A DNA stretch of 64,000 nucleotides from Acinetobacter pittii (lineage in GTDB: Bacteria > Pseudomonadota > Gammaproteobacteria > Pseudomonadales > Moraxellaceae): assembly GCF_034067285.1 (NCBI RefSeq), contig NZ_CP139286.1, forward strand, positions 1,612,001 through 1,676,000, in the 5' to 3' direction. The translations under genes and the position numbers were made by a program. Numbering within the stretch: position 1 is the first letter of the stretch; the number at the start of each line of letters is the position of its first letter. The notes below the pieces were generated by a model. That model searched no databases. It was not told where the DNA came from and saw nothing but the letters and a program-made list of their open reading frames with translations. Below, one piece after another: positions 29,493-37,192 of the stretch.

Positions 29493-29534
29493 TATAATTA
29501 AGCTTATAAAGCGTTTAATCTAATAAAAAATGTA

Positions 29535-29570
29535 GGGTAAAAGCTATCTACGCGATATCTTTTACCCTTT
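29535..29570 (+). terminator. Terminator of the agmatine-type operon
   Basis: GGGTAAAAG pairs with CTTTTACCC around a 15-nt loop, followed by TTTATT. Confidence 0.65.
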
Positions 29571-29658
29571 ATTACATCAGTCAACTTGTTAGATCTCATA
29601 TTTCTGTGTCTCTAAATTTTTTTATCGTGTTGAAAAATATAATTTTATTATTTATTTG

Positions 29659-29674
29659 TGTGTGCATGCACATA
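29659..29674. promoter_or_regulatory. Operator copy 1 of the ubiX-like promoter
   Basis: TGTGTGCATGCACATA contains the perfect palindrome TGTGCATGCACA and lies just upstream of the -35 element. A near-copy lies at 29708-29723. The pair brackets the promoter as expected for the MarR-type repressor encoded at the end of the operon. Confidence 0.65.
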
Positions 29675-29680
29675 AATAAA

Positions 29681-29708
29681 TTGACATAGAGCTTTGCTAT
29701 ATTAATAT
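29681..29708 (+). promoter_or_regulatory. Promoter of the ubiX-ubiD-marR operon
   Basis: A consensus -35 TTGACA (29681-29686) and -10 TAATAT (29703-29708) are 16 bp apart and are flanked by the two operator copies. Confidence 0.7.
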
Positions 29709-29723
29709 GTGTGCACATGCATA
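29708..29723. promoter_or_regulatory. Operator copy 2 of the ubiX-like promoter
   Basis: TGTGTGCACATGCATA is a near-copy of the site at 29659-29674. It overlaps the end of the -10 element and the expected transcription start, a position suited to repression. Confidence 0.65.
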
Positions 29724-29737
29724 TATTTTGGTGGTTT

Positions 29738-30334
29738 ATGAAACGTATAGTAATTTGTATTACAGGCGCCACTGGAGTCGTTTACGGTATTAGGCTTTTA
29801 GAAAAGTTAGCTGAATTAAATATCGAAACTCATTTAGTGATGAGTAAATGGGCAAAAGTAACAATAAAACAAGAAACAGATTATTCATTAAAAGATCTGC
29901 AAAAGTTGGCAACTTATATTTATTCAGATGCAGATCAGTCGGCTCCAATAGCGAGTGGATCTTACCGTTATGATGGGGTCGTAATAGCCCCTTGTAGTAT
30001 GAAAACTTTAGCAGGAATTAGTAGTGGTTATGCTGAGAACTTAATTACAAGAACAGCAGATGTCGCTTTAAAAGAGCGTCGTAAGCTCGTACTTATGGTT
30101 CGTGAAACTCCGCTTAGTATCATTCATCTTGAAAATATGCTGACTGTTGCAAAGGCGGGAGCAATTATTTTTCCTGCAATGCCAGCTTTTTATCATCAGC
30201 CTTATACCTTAGACGATGTCATTAATCAGGGCGTGGGCAGAATATTAGATATGTTTGATATTGATGATCCTTCATTAAAACGTTGGGAAGGGTTAGATAA
30301 AAAACAAAATATTGAAAAAGGAATTGAATCATGA
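29738..30334 (+). CDS. UbiX-family flavin prenyltransferase
   Basis: The product, about 198 residues, starts MKRIVICITGATGVVYGIRLLEKL, the flavoprotein phosphate-binding start of UbiX/Pad1 proteins, and has SMKTLAGISSGYAENLITRTADV plus the MVRETPLSIIHLENM motif. UbiX prenylates FMN to make the cofactor prFMN for UbiD decarboxylases. The ATG at 29738 gives the normal family N-terminus; an in-frame ATG at 29711 lies inside operator 2. The gene overlaps the ubiD-like start by 4 bp. Because the pair sits with a MarR gene, it likely serves catabolic decarboxylation rather than ubiquinone synthesis. Confidence 0.92.
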   Translation: MKRIVICITGATGVVYGIRLLEKLAELNIETHLVMSKWAKVTIKQETDYSLKDLQKLATYIYSDADQSAPIASGSYRYDGVVIAPCSMKTLAGISSGYAENLITRTADVALKERRKLVLMVRETPLSIIHLENMLTVAKAGAIIFPAMPAFYHQPYTLDDVINQGVGRILDMFDIDDPSLKRWEGLDKKQNIEKGIES

Positions 30335-31818
30335 ACTTACTTGAAGCAGCATTAGATTTTCGAAAATTTTTAGAAGAATTAGCCCTACGCAAAGATCTTG
30401 TTGAAATTCACCATGAAGTATCTGCACATTTAGAAGTTGCTGCTATTACTCGTCGAGTGTATGAAGAAAAGTTACCAGCTCCGTTATTTTGTAATATTCG
30501 TGAAGGAATGGCAGGAGCAAAGATTTTAGGTGCGCCAGCCGGCATGGTTGCAACACCCGGTAAAGAATACTCCCGTCTTGCTTTACACTTTGGCTTACCT
30601 TCGGATAGCACTCCTAAAGATATTGTTAATAAAATTCGTGCCGCAGTGAAAGCGGATCCTGTAGAGCCTGAATATTGTACGACTGGACCAGTTAAAGAAA
30701 ATATTTGGTTGGGTGATGAGGTTGACCTAGCACAGTTTCCAGTTCCTTTATTGCATGAAAAAGATGGCGGAAGATATTTTGGGACCTATGGTTTTCATGT
30801 TGTCCAATCACCAGATGGAAAGTGGAACAGTTGGGGCATTGGACGCTTAATGTTAGTTGACCGAAACCGCTTAACGGGTCCTGCAATTTCAACTCAGCAT
30901 ATTGGAATCGTCCGTGAAATGTGGCGGCAACAAGGTAAGCCAACGCCGTGGGCAATGGTTTTAGGTGCACCACCGGCTGCGGTCGCTGTCGCTGGAATGC
31001 CTTTACCAGCTGGCGTAAGTGAGCCGGACTATATTGGTGCTTTGCTAGGTAAAAGCATTCCTTTAATTAAAACAGAGACCAATAATCTTTGGGTGCCTGC
31101 TCATGCAGAAATCATTTTAGAAGGAGAAATAAGCCTTACAGAAAAAGCATTAGAAGGGCCAATGGGGGAATATCATGGCTACCAGCATCATCAAGGAAAT
31201 GAACAACCTATCTTTCATGTTAAAGCCGTTACTTTCCGTAATAATCCGATATTACCCATTTGCGTGGCTGGAACACCGCCTGAAGAAAATCATACAATTT
31301 GGGGGACAATGATTTCGGCACAACTGCTGGAAATTACTCAGAAGACAGGTTTACCAGTCGACTTCGTATGGTGCTCATATGAGGCAGCGACATGTTGGGC
31401 TGTAATTTCAATAGATACTGCTAAATTGGCTTTAATGGAAACAAACGCTACCGATTTTGTAGAACTTATTGCTAATGTGGTTTTTAATTCACATCCGGGA
31501 TATTTAATTCCTAAATTAATACTTGTAAGTAATGATATTGATATTACCAATATTAATGAGGTAGTTTGGGCACTTGCTACTCGATCTCATCCTAAAAATG
31601 ATCATTTTATTTTCCCTAATGTGAGAGAATTTCCGATGGTTCCTTATCTATCGGCGGAAGATAAAAAGAAGGGATGTGGCGGCAAAGCAGTAATTAATTG
31701 TCTTTTCCCTGAACAATTCAAGGGACAAATCAGAGCCGAGACAGCTTCTTTTAAATATTCATATCCTCAACATATCAAAGATAAAGTTGTAGAGCATTGG
31801 GAGAGTTATGGCTACTGA
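30331..31818 (+). CDS. UbiD-family non-oxidative decarboxylase
   Basis: The 495-residue protein has UbiD-family landmarks: WGIGRLMLVDRNRLTG, QHIGIVREMWRQQGKPTPWAMVLGAPPA, EGEISLTEKALEGPMGEYHGY with the catalytic glutamates, and HPGYLIPKLILVSNDIDITN. UbiD enzymes use prenylated FMN to decarboxylate or carboxylate aromatic or unsaturated acids. It is translationally coupled to the UbiX-type gene (ATGA overlap) and overlaps the MarR gene by 11 bp. The third small subunit of some hydroxyarylate decarboxylases (BsdD/VdcD) is absent. A phenolic or heteroaromatic acid substrate is inferred. Confidence 0.9.
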   Translation: MNLLEAALDFRKFLEELALRKDLVEIHHEVSAHLEVAAITRRVYEEKLPAPLFCNIREGMAGAKILGAPAGMVATPGKEYSRLALHFGLPSDSTPKDIVNKIRAAVKADPVEPEYCTTGPVKENIWLGDEVDLAQFPVPLLHEKDGGRYFGTYGFHVVQSPDGKWNSWGIGRLMLVDRNRLTGPAISTQHIGIVREMWRQQGKPTPWAMVLGAPPAAVAVAGMPLPAGVSEPDYIGALLGKSIPLIKTETNNLWVPAHAEIILEGEISLTEKALEGPMGEYHGYQHHQGNEQPIFHVKAVTFRNNPILPICVAGTPPEENHTIWGTMISAQLLEITQKTGLPVDFVWCSYEAATCWAVISIDTAKLALMETNATDFVELIANVVFNSHPGYLIPKLILVSNDIDITNINEVVWALATRSHPKNDHFIFPNVREFPMVPYLSAEDKKKGCGGKAVINCLFPEQFKGQIRAETASFKYSYPQHIKDKVVEHWESYGY

Positions 31819-32296
31819 CGCGAACGTTAAACAAAAAATGAGTCAAGGGCTTGGTTTACCCCAAGACTCATTATATTTAATGACAGAAATTGTGCGTTAT
31901 CGTGAGAAACGTTTGAGTACGTTATTAAATCAGAAGGGTATTACTTTACATGAGTGGCGTGCTCTACGTATTTTGTACAGTTTTAAAGGCGATGTTCCGA
32001 TGGGTGAGTTAATTGCCCATTCGCAAACGGATAGAACAGCGTTAGGGCGAACAATAAATCAGCTTGTTCAACGTGGTTGGGTCGAGCGTTTTCCCGCGCC
32101 TGATGATAAACGTGCTTTATATTTAAGAGTGACGTCACAATCTCAAGAGACATTTGAGCAAGTATGGAAAATGGTAACTGAATTTGATCAACAATTTCAG
32201 GCGAGTCTTAGTGAAAGTGACCACTTAATTTTTAAGAAAATTTTAAAAAATATGATGGTGAATATGGATATTTCTGAACAAGGTTCGCAACTGTAA
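31808..32296 (+). CDS. MarR family transcriptional regulator
   Basis: The 162-residue protein has a MarR winged helix: LHEWRALRILYS, MGELIAHSQTDRTALGRTINQLVQRGWVERFPAPDDKRALYLRVT. It overlaps the end of the UbiD-type gene by 11 bp, so the three genes form one operon. MarR proteins often respond to phenolic acids. The paired TGTGTGCA-type operators around the operon promoter (29659-29723) are the likely binding sites, giving autoregulation plus control of the decarboxylase. Confidence 0.88.
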   Translation: MATDANVKQKMSQGLGLPQDSLYLMTEIVRYREKRLSTLLNQKGITLHEWRALRILYSFKGDVPMGELIAHSQTDRTALGRTINQLVQRGWVERFPAPDDKRALYLRVTSQSQETFEQVWKMVTEFDQQFQASLSESDHLIFKKILKNMMVNMDISEQGSQL

Positions 32297-32340
32297 AATC
32301 AAGTCATGAAAATGAGAGGAAAGTTAGTGTTTAATATTAT

Positions 32341-32367
32341 CTATAGCCGTTTCCTTTACGGCTATAG
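32341..32367 (+). terminator. Hairpin after the MarR gene
   Basis: CTATAGCCGT pairs perfectly with ACGGCTATAG around TTCCTTT. The T-run after it is weak (GATTTTGTTT), so termination may be partial. Confidence 0.6.
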
Positions 32368-32734
32368 AACGATTTTGTTTCACAATTAGTATAAATCTAT
32401 AAATTAGTATAACTTACACTTAAGATTTTCCTTAAATATGTAATTAAATGAAAAACAATAATTAATTAAATATTTTCTAGCCAATTTCACATTGACACCT
32501 TAAATATTGCAGATTACCATTTGCGGGCTGGCCTACATTGCCAGTCGGTTTTGACGGACCGTGTAGTAAGACCGCATCAGAGCTATTCCTTCTGAGGAAT
32601 ACTTTTATGCGTAGACTTCTCGTCCCCTCTCGTAGCGGTAGGACGGGAGTGGGACACCTTCGGGTGTGCTGGAGTCTTACCCAGTCCGTCAACCTGCTTC
32701 CGTTCTGCCACCATAATCTATAATGTTTCGGCAG

Positions 32735-32754
32735 AACTCCCAATAGAAGGAGTT
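32735..32754 (+). promoter_or_regulatory. Hairpin that sequesters a ribosome-binding site
   Basis: AACTCC (32735-32740) pairs with GGAGTT (32749-32754), covering the AAGGAG site of the 18-codon ORF at 32759. Its left arm shares AAC with the right arm of the stem GTTCTGCC/GGCAGAAC, so the two cannot both form fully. This is a switch-like layout. Confidence 0.45.
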
Positions 32755-32758
32755 GGCT

Positions 32759-32815
32759 ATGCACATTCATCATTTATTGGCAGACATTGCCAAGGTCTAC
32801 AACGACACAACTTAA
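32759..32815 (+). CDS. Possible 18-residue peptide inside the structured RNA
   Basis: An ATG 6 nt after a near-perfect AAGGAG ribosome site opens a short frame coding for MHIHHLLADIAKVYNDTT, ending in TAA at 32813-32815. The ribosome site lies in a hairpin, so translation could depend on RNA folding. It might be a leader peptide, or it might not be translated. I recognise no homologue. Part of the coding stretch itself forms a hairpin (TTGGCA with TGCCAA). Confidence 0.35.
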   Translation: MHIHHLLADIAKVYNDTT

Positions 32816-32906
32816 ATCACTTTAAAGCAGCTCGATCGCCGTTAGGCTTTTCAGGCTTTAAATCATTACGTCTAAAACTTAGCAACAATAAAACTTGAGA
32901 TGTGCC

Positions 32907-32942
32907 AAGCACAGTCTTTACGGCTTTGCTGTGCCTTTTTTT
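32907..32942 (+). terminator. Terminator of the structured RNA
   Basis: GCACAG (32909-32914) pairs with CTGTGC (32929-32934), followed by a seven-T run. Confidence 0.8.
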
Positions 32943-33008
32943 CTCCCAGAAAAGGCACAGGCTTTTTAATCTCTTTTAGAAACAACAAGAATTTATAACG
33001 GTAAAACT

Positions 33009-33560
33009 ATGCAAAATTTAAAAACTTCTTCCAAAAAATTACAGGTTATTCATACTGCTATACGTTTATTTGTTACTTATGGTTTTCATACGACGGGTGT
33101 AGACCTAATTATTAAAGAAGCCGAAATAACCAAGGCGACTTTTTATAATTACTTTCACTCAAAAGAAAGGTTAATTGAAGTGTGCATCGCTTTTCAAAAA
33201 AGCCTGCTGAAAGAAGAAGTACTTGCCATTATTTACTCAAGTCGTTACCGCACTTCAAAGGACAAGCTCAAAGAAATTATAAACTTACATGTTAACTTTA
33301 ATAGCCTGTATTACCTTTTGCTTAAAGCCATTTTTGAAATTAAGCAGATTTACCCGCAGGCCTACCGTATGGCAATTGAGTATAGAAAATGGCTGCTCCG
33401 AGAACTTTTTGATCTGGTTTTTAGTTTGGAAACTCATGCGCTAAAACCCGATGCCAACATGGTTTTAAACTTAATTGATGGTTTGATGTTTCAGATTTTA
33501 AGCTCCAACAGTTTGGATGATCGGGATATGGTAGTGGAGAGGTTTTTTTGGGGGAAATAA
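33009..33560 (+). CDS. TetR family transcriptional regulator
   Basis: The 183-residue protein has a TetR-type N-terminal helix-turn-helix (AIRLFVTYGFHTTGVDLIIKEAEITKATFYNYFHSKERLIEV). The C-terminal ligand domain is divergent, with many aromatic and basic residues. It follows the structured RNA by about 66 bp, and the ribosome site is weak. No adjacent target gene or clear palindrome was found, so its regulon is unknown. It starts a stretch of accessory genes. Confidence 0.83.
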   Translation: MQNLKTSSKKLQVIHTAIRLFVTYGFHTTGVDLIIKEAEITKATFYNYFHSKERLIEVCIAFQKSLLKEEVLAIIYSSRYRTSKDKLKEIINLHVNFNSLYYLLLKAIFEIKQIYPQAYRMAIEYRKWLLRELFDLVFSLETHALKPDANMVLNLIDGLMFQILSSNSLDDRDMVVERFFWGK

Positions 33561-33676
33561 AATAAGTAATTCCATAATGGTAAATTATAGTTTATAAAGC
33601 TAATTTTAAAGTAAAGCTAAAAGTATCAAATCTTTATAACTATTTTTAATGGATAGAAAGCCAATAAGGTTATTTT

Positions 33677-34519
33677 ATGAGAGAAATAAGAGAATTAAAT
33701 AAATTATTAAAATGTTATAAAACATATAGTGTTGAAAGTTTGATTCATTCATTAAAATTTGATCAAAAACATATACTAGATAGTTTAGATGGGGAAGATA
33801 TACTTTTTCCTCATCATATAGTGGGTATATCTATATCTTATGCCCAATTGGCATTCTTAAAAATTGAAAATAATAATTCAGATATAGAGGCTTTAAAAAA
33901 TTTAAATCTTGCTTTGATGTATGCAGAGGTGGGAAGAGAATTACAATTAAAAGATTTTAAAATAAAACCTTTAGATAAAATGAATGTACATGATTTAAAG
34001 AAGTATTTTTCAGAATTTTCTGCATTACTTTTTTGGGCAATTTTGTTAAATAATAAAAACTTAGCAAAGAAATTAGCACGCCAAGTAGAGTTTTGCTTAC
34101 AACAAAAATTTCTATCTGATTTTCCTTTAAGTTATGACTATTTTTCATTATGGGCTTATTACAAATGGATTAATGAAAAATTTACATTAGAATCAAAAAT
34201 AGATGGAAAATTTAAAGATTTGATAAATAATTGGTCATGTGACTCAGTATTTTTAGAACCATTACTCATAGATATAGCAAATTTACACTGCGAAGAATTA
34301 ATAGATAACGATTCACGTAAGTATCCTCCAAAATTTATTAACCCTCCGTTTACTTTATTGCCACTTGAAATTCATGTAATTAATAAATTACGTGCATTAG
34401 ATAAATTAGATGAAATATATTTAAACCATCCTTTAATGAAAACCTATTCAGCACAAATTACAGAATTTGAAGTGATAGGTGATAATTTGCTTGAAACGAT
34501 ACAGATAGATTTTTTGTAG
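33677..34519 (+). CDS. Hypothetical protein, mostly helical (possible immunity protein)
   Basis: I do not recognise this 280-residue protein. It is lysine-, asparagine- and leucine-rich, predicted largely helical, without signal peptide or membrane segment. A middle region (AILLNNKNLAKKLARQVEFC) resembles helical-repeat packing, and a late PPFTLLPLEIHVINKLR...HPLM segment resembles the ends of some polymorphic-toxin immunity proteins. It is very AT-rich compared with its neighbours, suggesting recent acquisition. The AAGG ribosome site before the ATG supports the start. The immunity idea is a weak inference. Confidence 0.7.
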   Translation: MREIRELNKLLKCYKTYSVESLIHSLKFDQKHILDSLDGEDILFPHHIVGISISYAQLAFLKIENNNSDIEALKNLNLALMYAEVGRELQLKDFKIKPLDKMNVHDLKKYFSEFSALLFWAILLNNKNLAKKLARQVEFCLQQKFLSDFPLSYDYFSLWAYYKWINEKFTLESKIDGKFKDLINNWSCDSVFLEPLLIDIANLHCEELIDNDSRKYPPKFINPPFTLLPLEIHVINKLRALDKLDEIYLNHPLMKTYSAQITEFEVIGDNLLETIQIDFL

Positions 34520-34670
34520 TTGAATAGACTAACGAAAGAATCCCAAAGATATACGCTTTGCTATTACACATTGCTTAAAAAATATACAGAAACCTCCCTA
34601 AAACAAGTTGGAACGCTACAAACGCGAATGATACTTTAAGTTTCACTCTTCCCAATAAGTGAGGTGAGCA

Positions 34671-34811
34671 ATGAAATTGTTAGCTTTGGTTAGCATGGGA
34701 GTTGCAGCGAGTTATTGGTATAAAACTATAAAAAATAGCAAGCTAACTCTCAGAAAATCAAATTTTGATGAAATAGTAAAAAACTTTGTATTAGCAGACT
34801 TTAAAGTCTAA
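34671..34811 (+). CDS. Small single-span membrane protein, 46 residues
   Basis: The frame starts after GAGGTGAGCA, a good ribosome site, and codes for a hydrophobic N-terminus (MKLLALVSMGVAASYWY) followed by a charged tail (KNSKLTLRKSNFDEIVKNF). It could be an inner-membrane peptide or a short exported protein. A terminator follows at 34839. No homologue is recognised; the ribosome site and the terminator support it as a real gene. Confidence 0.5.
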   Translation: MKLLALVSMGVAASYWYKTIKNSKLTLRKSNFDEIVKNFVLADFKV

Positions 34812-34838
34812 TGCATTTAATAATGTTAATTAAATAAG

Positions 34839-34864
34839 AAGCTCATCGGAAGATGGGCTTTTTT
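34839..34864 (+). terminator. Terminator, copy 1 of a repeated hairpin
   Basis: AAGCTCATC-GGAA-GATGGGCTT followed by T residues is identical over 26 bp to the hairpin at 36558-36583. Confidence 0.8.
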
Positions 34865-34939
34865 ATTGGAGTCGTATTTATTGCGTTTCGAGTTAGTCGG
34901 TATTTATAATTGCACCGAATTTTTAAATAAAAATGGCAA

Positions 34940-35383
34940 ATGACAACTACAGTAAGACTTAATCACACATCATCTTCTGGAACTAGAGGAGATGGACGTG
35001 ATCAGAAAGAAAAATTTATAGATTATTGTGAATATAAGTATTTTCTACCTGATAGTCAGAAATGGGGTGTTTCAGTGAAAACTGAATTAACTCAAGCAGA
35101 AATAATAGAAAAGCAAAAATGCAATGACGCTATCAATAATCCTTTCACATCAGAATACTATCTTTTGCTTTGTCTCATAATTATTACGATTATATTTTTC
35201 ACTTTTTGGAATATGAAAGGTTATCTTTCTATAAAAAGGAGAGAGCAAGAGACAGGAATTAAAGCGAATATATCATTTGAAATGAAAATCACATGTTTAG
35301 CTTCATTCTTTCTTACTCTTATTGTCGCGGGAGTATTGTACGTTCTCTATTTTCTATATCTTAATTATAAGTATCAGTACTGA
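34940..35383 (+). CDS. Hypothetical two-span membrane protein
   Basis: The 147-residue protein has a polar N-terminal half (about residues 1-72, rich in Thr, Ser and Lys) and two hydrophobic segments: YYLLLCLIIITIIFFTFW (near 74-91) and CLASFFLTLIVAGVLYVLYFLYL (near 119-141). It is probably an inner-membrane protein. The start is uncertain because no clear ribosome site precedes it. I recognise no family. It sits among other unplaced accessory genes; small membrane proteins of this kind are common in toxin-immunity regions, which is only a suggestion. Confidence 0.55.
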   Translation: MTTTVRLNHTSSSGTRGDGRDQKEKFIDYCEYKYFLPDSQKWGVSVKTELTQAEIIEKQKCNDAINNPFTSEYYLLLCLIIITIIFFTFWNMKGYLSIKRREQETGIKANISFEMKITCLASFFLTLIVAGVLYVLYFLYLNYKYQY

Positions 35384-35721
35384 AGTATCTAAGTTAGTCG
35401 AAAATATTTTGGCACATCAACCCCGATAAATGTATATTATTATTGGGGTTTTGTTTTATGGGCTAGGGGCTATTTTTAGTTCTTCTTAAAAAAAAACAAT
35501 AGTCCAAAACAGAAAATAAATACAATATACCAAATTTATATAAACGGTAACCTGTTTGAATTGGCTTTGCTAGAGGTTTTTGCTCAGAACCTTAATTTGG
35601 CTTAGTCTTAGCCTTGGCGGTTATTCTTTTATGAACATTGGTGTCATAGTTAAGAAATTTAAAGATATTTAAATTTATCATAGTGTTATTATAAGAAAGT
35701 TTAATATTAATTAACTGTAAT
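35384..35721. other. Intergenic region, 338 bp, without a recognisable gene
   Basis: Apart from the terminator-like hairpin near its start, this AT-rich stretch contains no frame with a ribosome site. A central part (35540-35640) is less AT-rich and might be a decayed gene, but no reading frame persuades me. Confidence 0.5.
35419..35455 (+). terminator. Terminator of the membrane protein gene
   Basis: AACCCC pairs with GGGGTT around a 24-nt AT-rich loop, followed by TTGTTTT. Confidence 0.6.
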
Positions 35722-36477
35722 ATGGATTATATGAATAAATTGCATAAGAATGAATCTCCAGAAATGATTCTAGCTTTTGAGAGTGCTATAAGTACATTTA
35801 AATATTTTTGGCGTGAACTTTATTGGGAATATCGACGAATTGTTCCTGCTCTAGAGCTGGCTTATGTGAAGTGTGCATTTATCCAAGAAAACCTTGAAGA
35901 TAAAAATGAACCTTTAATTGAGTATATGTGGATTGATCAAGTTGATTTTGATGGGAGTACAATTTCAGGAATTTTGTTAAATGAACCTTATATTATTGAT
36001 AATGTGCAAGCTGGTGAAACAGTAAGGCTCCAATTTGAGTCTATAGTTGATTGGATGTTTTTATGTAAAGGCACTGTTCATGGTGCGTTTACGATTCAAG
36101 AATATCGTAAGACTTTAAATGCATCAGGTCGTAAAGAATATGATGAGGCATGGGGGATTGATTTTGGTAATCCTGATGAAATTTTTCTAGTTTATGACCA
36201 GAAAAATTGTCCCGAAAATCTAGACGAACATCCCATGTGTAAGAATATGTTAGATCAGTTCATAAATATTATAAATACAGACTCCAAAATCATTAGTGAA
36301 AAAGATGAAAGTGGTAATCAATTGCTACATCGTGAAGTTTTAGCAGGTAACTATTTGTTTGTCCGAGAACTTTTAACCTTGAATGTCAATAAGTTAATAA
36401 TGAATAATCAATCAATGACTCCTTTAGATTTGGCTAATAAGATTGGATGGAACAATATTGTAAATTTACTTAAGTAG
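35722..36477 (+). CDS. DUF2314-like domain protein with C-terminal ankyrin repeats
   Basis: The 251-residue protein has a central DUF2314-like region (YMWIDQVDFDGSTISGILLNEP, then AGETVRLQFESIVDWMF) and a C-terminal ankyrin segment (DESGNQLLHREVLAGNYLFVRELLTLNVNKLIMNNQSMTPLDLANKIGWNNIVNLL). DUF2314 proteins of this pattern (YegJ-like) are small and their role is unknown; the ankyrin tail suggests protein binding. Such combinations occur among immunity-type proteins in toxin loci, but no toxin gene is visible here. The start (35722 or 35731) lacks a strong ribosome site. Confidence 0.7.
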   Translation: MDYMNKLHKNESPEMILAFESAISTFKYFWRELYWEYRRIVPALELAYVKCAFIQENLEDKNEPLIEYMWIDQVDFDGSTISGILLNEPYIIDNVQAGETVRLQFESIVDWMFLCKGTVHGAFTIQEYRKTLNASGRKEYDEAWGIDFGNPDEIFLVYDQKNCPENLDEHPMCKNMLDQFINIINTDSKIISEKDESGNQLLHREVLAGNYLFVRELLTLNVNKLIMNNQSMTPLDLANKIGWNNIVNLLK

Positions 36478-36557
36478 CTTTGAACCACGCCCTCTAATTG
36501 AGAACGTTTTCAAGTAATGAAATTTATAAAAAATAAAATTGGTTTTCATAAAAAGTT

Positions 36558-36583
36558 AAGCTCATCGGAAGATGGGCTTTTTT
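36558..36583 (+). terminator. Terminator, copy 2 of a repeated hairpin
   Basis: Identical over 26 bp to 34839-34864 (GCTCATC-GGAA-GATGGGC, then T residues). The duplication within 1.8 kb suggests that gene-terminator units were copied in this region. Confidence 0.8.
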
Positions 36584-36589
36584 GTGGTT

Positions 36590-36711
36590 ATGGATATTAA
36601 AATTACTTTACTGAAGAAGTCCTCTAATGAGTTGATCGATTTTTTAGTCATGAAAAAATAATACAGCTCAAAGACCAGCGTGATATGGTATGTGAACACC
36701 TCCAAAAATAA
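36590..36711 (+). pseudogene. Possible frameshifted small gene
   Basis: A frame from ATG at 36590 codes for a 23-residue product starting MDIKITLLKKSSNELIDF and stops just after a six-A run (36653-36658). One added A would join it to a second open stretch (IIQLKDQRDMVCEHLQK) ending at 36711, 10 bp before the next gene. This could be a broken gene of about 40 residues or chance; no homologue is recognised. Confidence 0.25.
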
Positions 36712-36720
36712 GGATTAGAG

Positions 36721-36957
36721 ATGTCAGACAATACAACGAAATGGCTTTGTGTAGGTGGTGTACTAAGTGGAGAGTGGAGAGAGCAGCAATTAGAAGCTTT
36801 TGATGTTGATCCTCATGATTTAAATACTCATAGTTATGAACCAATGAAACTTATTAATCCTGTTACCAAGATAGAACAGCACTTTTATGTATATACGGAG
36901 CTACAGGAACAGGCATATGAAAGGGCATTAAATTTTGCCTTATACAAAAATCAATAA
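36721..36957 (+). CDS. Hypothetical protein, 78 residues
   Basis: This small soluble protein begins MSDNTTKWLCVGGVLSGEWREQ and is preceded by a good AAGGA ribosome site, with a terminator immediately after. It is acidic and has no signal peptide, membrane span or recognised motif. Gene-plus-terminator spacing supports a real gene. It belongs to the run of accessory genes at 33.7-37.4 kb; its function is unknown. Confidence 0.65.
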   Translation: MSDNTTKWLCVGGVLSGEWREQQLEAFDVDPHDLNTHSYEPMKLINPVTKIEQHFYVYTELQEQAYERALNFALYKNQ

Positions 36958-36962
36958 AGATG

Positions 36963-36986
36963 AGAGAGCACTTAGGTGCTCTTTTT
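36963..36986 (+). terminator. Terminator of the 78-residue gene
   Basis: AGAGCAC pairs with GTGCTCT around TTAG, followed by TTTT. Confidence 0.75.
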
Positions 36987-37192
36987 AAATTTATTCTTAG
37001 TAATAGCTGAGTCGTAAAAATTAACTTTCAAATTATTGTTAATAATAAATTATTTGTTGTTAGAGTCAGGTTGATCATACTTCTCAGAGTGCATAATTTT
37101 TTAAAAATTAATTCGATCTAATTGCCTACAAAATATTGATAGTATAAAAGTTTCGTTACGCATAATATGTCCGATTAAATTGGAGCATTTTA

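Follow-up and report, generated by a model that had tools for sequence, protein, structure and literature searches.

The 422-nt stretch at 32521–32942 in a 64-kb segment of the Acinetobacter pittii genome (the window, meaning the whole stretch of DNA analysed) is the regulatory leader of a TetR-family gene that starts at 33009, and it brings together a promoter, a target site, a C4 antisense RNA, an open reading frame (ORF) of 18 codons and terminators. The membership of 32631–32715 in the C4 family is secure, and so is the architecture of a gene leader with a cognate target. The best explanation of the data as a whole, and a fairly probable one, is that the leader makes a C4 RNA that represses its own gene through a target, a1b1, carrying an address of its own. 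Repression of the own leader by C4 in trans is likely, the unit may serve as an autorepressing or bistable switch, and bistable TetR genes are hypothesized to explain random switching. A C4 family RNA in Acinetobacter is already known (Weiss et al., 2016; PMC5320573). New are the C4 RNAs with own targets in front of TetR and lipoprotein genes, their distinct addresses, two classes of units, mutually exclusive helices that covary, and a coincidence with the TTTR regulators of Acinetobacter baumannii.

The C4 leader of the TetR gene

Rfam searches gave C4 antisense RNA (RF01695) as the sole match above cut-off in the window, at 32631–32715, with 57.1 bits against a cut-off of 45 and an E-value of 2.3e-8; matches to atoC, CyaR and CRISPR-DR30 were below cut-off and were taken as chance. 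The preliminary description of this DNA had wavered between a C4-like small RNA of the kind reported in Acinetobacter and an undescribed class. The former is borne out by the RF01695 score and by the first stem-loop, which has the CUACAUU loop of Region 1 of the Group 1 small RNAs (sRNAs) of A. baumannii AB5075 (Weiss et al., 2016; PMC5320573). An undescribed class is ruled out by the same score and is no longer needed.

The nested stems that had been described lie where they were placed. The outer stem pairs TTGACGGAC at 32551–32559 with GTCCGTCAA at 32684–32692 (9/9 pairs), the inner stem pairs GTAAGAC at 32566–32572 with GTCTTAC at 32674–32680 (7/7 pairs), and the UUCG hairpin is present at 32654–32667. 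The stretch is also well folded, with -132.5 kcal/mol against a mean of -112.7 in shuffled sequences (z -3.05; 1 of 100 shuffles equally stable). By pattern it does end in a terminator, a GCACAG/CTGTGC hairpin followed by T7 ending at 32942, together with an overlapping and stronger hairpin. What did not hold is the picture of a single self-contained RNA of 420 nt. The stretch is instead a gene leader in which C4 takes up 85 nt, and the nested stems are the complementarity between antisense and target; several stems are mutually exclusive, so that the stretch is not one uniform fold. The absence of a convincing long gene is correct for the stretch itself, but the 18-codon ORF lies inside it and the TetR gene begins 66 nt past its end. 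The features of the unit are listed below; the names a1, b1 (upstream, putative) and a2, b2 (downstream) follow the record of phage P1.

32420–33557, + strand: dispersed repeat unit from the promoter region to the TetR stop codon (blastn against related loci)
32492–32520, + strand: promoter-like site TTGACA-N17-TACCAT (10/12 matches; 2 promoter-like sites found against 1.5 expected)
32526–32546, + strand: 5' stem-loop with loop CUACAUU ('Region 1' of Weiss et al.), part of a weak c4-a1b1 match (fold)
32551–32559, + strand: target site a1, complementary to C4 32684–32692 (pairing, fold)
32566–32572, + strand: target site b1, complementary to the C4 P3 loop 32674–32680 (pairing, fold)
32573–32611, + strand: hairpin P0 between target and C4 (minimum free energy fold)
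32631–32715, + strand: C4 antisense RNA, 85 nt (RF01695 match, covariation)
32702–32737, + strand: alternative helix of 32702–32709 (3' strand of the C4 P1 stem) with 32730–32737, excluding the P1 stem (covariation)
32735–32754, + strand: hairpin AACTCC/GGAGTT over the Shine-Dalgarno site, excluding the alternative helix (96.8% of cells paired)
32759–32815, + strand: 18-codon leader ORF with a Shine-Dalgarno site (length kept in most class B units)
32909–32942, + strand: intrinsic terminator-like hairpin with T7 (sequence pattern; inner part 32919–32933 found by a terminator scan)
32929–32960, + strand: second terminator-like hairpin of 13 pairs with GCTTTTT, overlapping the first and stronger
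33009–33560, + strand: TetR-family regulator of 183 amino acids (aa) (PF00440, 48.3 bits, cut-off 24)

Within C4 the P1 stem is formed by 32637–32653 and 32693–32709, followed inwards by P2 (32654–32667) and P3 (32668–32685). The antisense segments are a' at the junction (32684–32692) and b' in the P3 loop (32674–32680); the outer 9-bp stem is a1 with a', and the inner 7-bp stem is b1 with b'. The target sits 59–80 nt 5' of C4 on the same transcript. A match to c4-a1b1 (RF03163) at 32514–32565 reached 20.2 bits, under its cut-off of 46.7. Genome-wide there were 8 subthreshold matches to this family and none above cut-off, and at the same E-value 6 of 14 control genomes also gave matches. Judged from its complementarity to the C4 loops, the upstream site probably acts like a c4-a1b1 target, yet it is below the score for membership in RF03163.

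Own targets, addresses and classes of units

The specificity of the pairing was compared between each C4 and its own and other leaders, by a method that in phage P1, the control, finds both annotated target pairs (-28.2 and -29.1 kcal/mol). The window genome (3.69 Mb in one contig) carries 16 C4 copies, all over the RF01695 cut-off. Their loops paired with their own upstream 150 nt at a mean of -26.9 kcal/mol, against -18.3 for the other 15 leaders. The own target ranked first in 14/16 and second in 2/16, and none of 100000 permutations was as good. Among 60 unique leaders own pairing had a mean of -26.2 against -18.6, with the own target first for 29 and in the top three for 44 (0/20000 permutations). 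The junction exists in five versions among these leaders. Exact matches of 7 nt or more to the own leader exist for the junction part in 60/60, against 24% of foreign leaders, and for the P3-loop part in 51/60, against 5%. Six genomes together hold 126 C4s, 124 over the Rfam cut-off and two below it (37.5 and 34.1 bits). A fitting upstream target of their own, defined as -20.5 kcal/mol or better, is present for 116/126, the remaining 10 being without one or outside the target tests; a first limit of -22 gave 113/126 and was relaxed once values of -21.0 and -21.7 had come up. Automatic parsing failed for three P3 segments; two of them were defined manually, and the third (G054 C3:2369025) was excluded from target testing. 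The own target was the best one for 84/116.

Addresses are distinct within genomes for 115 of the 116 target-bearing units (16/16, 19/19, 22/22, 22/22, 17/18 and 19/19), with 70 different ones overall. Only 7 pairs within genomes have the same P3 loop, and 6 of them differ in a'. Between genomes a' is also common in 79 of 109 same-loop pairs, which are non-independent and in many cases orthologues. At sites with one or both flanks alike in two genomes the loops differ in 117/154 pairs, and at sites with both flanks alike in 20/40; 8 of those 20 pairs nevertheless encode downstream proteins with 85% identity or more. One pair of genomes from the same species has 7 both-flank sites, and the loops differ at 5, of which 4 precede TetRs that are 97–99% identical. 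At those changed sites each copy has its own fitting target, so that antisense and target change together, most simply, we infer, by recombination of the leader.

The gene that follows C4 at a near-constant distance in the window genome encodes a TetR-family protein in 13/16 cases and a small lipoprotein-like protein in 3/16. Two of these TetRs were searched against Pfam and both matched PF00440, and one lipoprotein-like protein had no Pfam match. Among the nearest TetR relatives, taken as the best 80 of 245 found, C4 begins 341–411 nt before the matched TetR start in 80/80. In the six genomes the 116 target-bearing C4s are followed by TetR in 89 cases, the lipoprotein family in 26 and neither in 1. 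In a genus sample of 79 genomes, analysed with stricter filters, C4 was found in 66, with 15–24 copies in 9 and 0–8 in the other 70. The 37 best C4 loci of the genus and family searches, some of which share genomes, are followed by TetR in 8, lipoprotein in 5 and other genes in 24; the link with TetR is therefore typical of many-copy genomes and not of all C4s.

Two of those 24 loci (L170 and L181) have C4 before phage Rha regulators, and at G007 C1:280868 C4 precedes an unclassified gene. All three are apparently prophage-type C4 operons, and the Rha neighbours would be in line with a phage origin of C4. Several records with C4 matches seem to be mislabelled. Records named 'Acinetobacter phage MD-2021a' (CAKLQF02/CAKLQH02), of up to 378 kb and with up to 5 matches, resemble bacterial contigs and not phages, and their matches overlie an annotated TetR-family regulator and a dihydroxyacetone kinase regulator. 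The PLSDB 'plasmids' NZ_CP064203, NZ_CP104448 and NZ_CP077849 (3.7–4.1 Mb, 13–16 matches) are probably A. baumannii chromosomes. An Acinetobacter-type C4-TetR unit on a contig of a metagenome-assembled genome labelled Sphingobacterium (L083) is probably a binning error.

Counted once each, the units comprise 39 of class A, 86 of class B, to which the window belongs, 9 unclassified and 24 lipoprotein units. In class A TetR units a2, directly 3' of C4, is present in 36/39 and b2 in 36/39, and, as in phage P1, 35 of the b2 sites coincide in part with the Shine-Dalgarno sequence of the leader ORF; the exceptions without a2b2 (L114, G053 2374916 and G150 1065174) have leaders that by eye are of class B. 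Class B units have a1 in 86/86, a2 in 0/86 and b2 in 1/86. Lipoprotein units have the upstream pair in 24/24, a2 in 1 and b2 in 3. Upstream, b1 matches over 6 nt or more in 38/39 class A, 80/86 class B and 24/24 lipoprotein units. Class A thus keeps a second target of the phage P1 type at the ribosome site, and class B has lost it. Because class B holds on to a1b1 without a2b2, its function there should lie in a1b1. A downstream second target in all units had been sought by duplex energy and gave no preference for the own C4 (median rank 30/60); the exact matches later revealed class A.

Some C4 copies have no target. Such extra C4s lie upstream at 7/80 TetR loci, and at three of these they form a run of three. 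At L086, L131, L139 and L186 (G150 C1:3346721–3346976) three tandem target-less C4s each, about 85–115 nt apart and with mostly different loops, stand 5' of a C4-TetR unit. In a set of 17 unique target-less C4s, to which two further genomes contributed, the loops on the whole matched known leaders better than did controls with shuffled loops (mean z -1.2). Taken one by one, 7/17 were equalled by no more than 6 of 100 controls and 10/17 by at least 12. This fit suggests that they may act in trans.

The edges of the repeat unit were compared by blastn of window positions 29500–37000 with 80 related loci. Similarity mostly begins at about 32418–32530, at some loci at 32599–32640, and stops at about 33180–33557. 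The exceptions are L065, similar from 30010, and L071, similar to 34525. Apart from TetR, the unit has no ORF longer than 100 aa. The promoter-like TTGAC is kept in 10 of the 16 genome copies, namely those correctly oriented in the comparison. A terminator scan of 32300–33010 gave 3 terminator-like sites against 0.5 expected in shuffles, one of which (32340) is outside the stretch; it is an 11-pair terminator-like hairpin at 32340–32368, 3' of a MarR-like gene. Beyond the TetR gene, 34541–34868 and 36558–36988 recur with 90–98% similarity in L065, L066 and L070, and their spacing from the TetR unit is different there; the cluster of small genes 3' of the unit may therefore be shuffled.

Two folds of the leader and the proposed regulation

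The preliminary description had looked to covariation among homologues for support, and it is found, by pair counts with shuffles and by own-versus-other pairing and not by R-scape. The leader alignment held 68 of 81 sequences (67 distinct), with 13 short-contig or near-duplicate loci left out. The C4 stems and the Shine-Dalgarno hairpin had 98.3% of 2197 cells paired and 13 pairs changed on both sides, and 0/500 shuffles were as high. In the alternative helix 99.3% of 536 cells were paired and 4 pairs changed on both sides; paired cells, changed cells and covariation score were each reached by 0/500 shuffles. The P1 stem and the alternative helix are both conserved despite sharing bases, that is, mutually exclusive helices covary.

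The states of the window leader were computed as in silico pair probabilities with and without a1b1 blocked, which mimics C4 bound in trans. Unbound, the leader is predicted to pair a1b1 with C4 (0.92) and to form the alternative helix (0.89), with the P1 stem at 0.01 and the Shine-Dalgarno hairpin at 0.39. When a1b1 is blocked the P1 stem rises to 0.90 and the Shine-Dalgarno hairpin to 0.84, and the alternative helix falls to 0.11. Over 157 unique leaders (193 rows counted once per unit) blocking raised the mean of the P1 stem from 0.05 to 0.38, with a rise of more than 0.2 in 85 and a fall in 1; with two control masks the stem rose in 12 and 7.

In the proposed mechanism the leader transcript would be processed and C4 freed, and free C4 would pair in trans with a1b1 on further copies of its own leader, as complementarity and co-evolution indicate. 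An unbound leader in the cell would pair a1b1 with its own C4 loops, so that the C4 fold is blocked and the 3' strand of C4 pairs downstream. A leader with a1b1 covered would fold C4, which would give more C4 and less read-through into TetR. C4 would in this way repress its own gene by an address mostly not common to paralogues. As high C4 would sustain itself the unit could be bistable, and this would explain the random activation of single TetR genes.

Several results weigh against this proposal. Of the five covariation measures taken for the alternative helix, two fail to rise clearly above shuffles: 16/500 reach the number of changed pairs and 347/500 the pair types. No flip was predicted in 72 of the 157 leaders, nor in silico in the leader of phage P1 on target blocking. 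The probability that the Shine-Dalgarno bases are paired, whatever the partner, moved only from 0.79 to 0.83 across the 157 leaders (29 rises, 8 falls), and in the window leader it was 0.78 in both states of that run, though the hairpin itself rises. Since this pairing hardly shifts, the last step of the model is unsupported in general, and sequestration of the Shine-Dalgarno site by target blocking was dropped as a general rule. The own target ranks second or lower for 32/116 units in the six genomes, and cross-talk is therefore predicted. The leader ORF is 18 codons long in 67 of 80 unique class B ORFs despite different start codons (TTG 52, ATG 27, GTG 1), but these ORFs have no excess of third-position substitutions and hence no codon-level constraint; selection on a leader peptide at the codon level was rejected. 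Own-specific complementarity, finally, could serve cis pairing alone.

The last point leads to the idea of an attenuator working in cis only, in which C4 never acts in trans, a1b1 pairs with the C4 loops of the same molecule and two folds decide between processing and termination. The same covariation would be expected, and the free window leader is indeed predicted to be cis-paired (0.92). This account is nevertheless unlikely, given the homology to the trans-acting C4 of phage P1, the abundant processed C4 reported for A. baumannii (PMC5320573) and the existence of target-less C4s, some in tandem, with loops tending to fit other leaders. An immunity or incompatibility unit of a mobile element, whose address excludes or silences units of the same address, with TetR as a passenger and target-less arrays as stores of addresses, would agree with the dispersed unit and its fairly sharp ends and with addresses so distinct within genomes that even same-loop pairs differ in a' (6/7). 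Of 9 target-less C4s, 3 find their weakest best target, among six genomes, in the genome that carries them, as such a unit would have it, whereas that genome ranks 1–3 for the other 6, which makes the reading mixed; the exclusion test is also not clean, because orthologues inflate the between-genome rates. This explanation is less plausible still, since the unit holds no other ORF above 100 aa than TetR, and TetR appears to belong to a family with its own phenotype in A. baumannii (PMC9802203). Weiss et al. have suggested, in the available part of their text, that the variable loop of C4 regulates unrelated chromosomal mRNAs (PMC5320573). The loops do vary, but their variation is accounted for by the co-varying own target (b1 matches in nearly all units), and targets of that kind are very improbable as the explanation, although no search aimed at further targets was made and C4 may have some. 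Repression of the own gene through an own-address a1b1 remains the preferred reading.

TTTR genes and comparison with known systems

Perez-Varela et al. (2022; PMC9802203, in the sections available) have reported 11 related TetR genes (TTTR) that can drive opaque virulent A. baumannii (VIR-O) to the translucent form. Four TTTRs come on at random and in differing combinations, overexpression turns opaque cells translucent, and autoregulation was not found for the three that were tested there. Like the C4-led TetRs, the TTTRs are related and multi-copy; no leader RNA is described in those sections. Their locus tags were placed on the AB5075 map by one fitted slope, a comparison of positions. All 12 tags (11 and a pseudogene) lie at most 25 kb from a Group 1 sRNA, at a mean of 10.8 kb against 91 kb for random tags (0/20000). 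ABUW_0220, called Group 1-like by Weiss et al. (PMC5320573), adjoins ABUW_0222 by number, and three of three A. baumannii records (L287–L289) have such a TetR behind a similar unit. From the map positions, the TetRs behind C4 leaders appear to be the TTTR family of A. baumannii (ABUW_1645 and 10 others). Open-licence PMC literature yielded no link of C4 with these TetRs, and a term search of the available text of PMC12802169, PMC11472050 and PMC10878099 gave no mention of C4 antisense RNA. SrvS, a plasmid sRNA that raises switching, was considered as a C4 sponge and rejected; the 375 nt before aadB did no better than background, 16/60 plasmid windows being lower.

A wider picture, tentative and short of probable, is that these Acinetobacter genomes hold about 16–22 bistable antisense switches apiece, every one of which has its own address and controls a TetR or lipoprotein gene of its own. 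A unit that by chance lost its C4 pool would let its single TetR come on, and this would be the missing mechanism of stochastic TTTR activation; target-less arrays would silence other units in trans, and addresses exchanged by recombination would keep the switches apart. This would offer a concrete and testable mechanism for the random activation of TetRs that govern colony type and virulence in Acinetobacter, a matter left open in the available text of PMC9802203. The units would form a natural set of largely distinct antisense regulators, a phage immunity RNA having come to serve as leader for a family of many regulator genes, in which as many as 22 addresses coexist within a genome.

The Group 1 sRNAs of AB5075 belong to the same RNA family as the window C4 and have the same Region 1 loop, CUACAUU (Weiss et al., 2016; PMC5320573, in the sections available). 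The group has 21 members, 6 of them without Region 1; the target-less copies described above resemble these six, four of which are consecutive at 3.224 Mb. In RNA-seq of AB5075 the C4 part was covered by more reads than Region 1 and processed C4 was abundant; cutting of C4 from a longer transcript by RNase P was inferred from the coverage. The account given there differs from the present one in that Region 1 has a possible auxiliary function only and the variable loop is thought to be aimed at other RNAs; a search of the main text for 'TetR' gives tetraloop alone.

The immI operon of phages P1 and P7 (c4-icd-ant; RF01695, RF03163) shares the C4 fold and the upstream target pair with the window unit. 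In phage P1, C4 acts in trans and is freed by processing of the leader transcript. The second target pair of the phage P1 type, at the Shine-Dalgarno site of a small ORF, is present in class A relatives and absent from the window copy. In the latter icd and ant are replaced by the 18-codon ORF, terminators and TetR, with no antirepressor gene downstream; the unit is chromosomal and in 16 copies, and its leader is predicted to be self-paired, unlike that of phage P1. The phage P1 site a1b1, annotated as putative, gains support because it is the sole target kept in the class of the window. In the immunity of satellite P4 the CI RNA is an antisense RNA cut from a leader that bears its own complementary sites, and the window unit resembles it in this general design of a leader-derived antisense RNA with its own sites.
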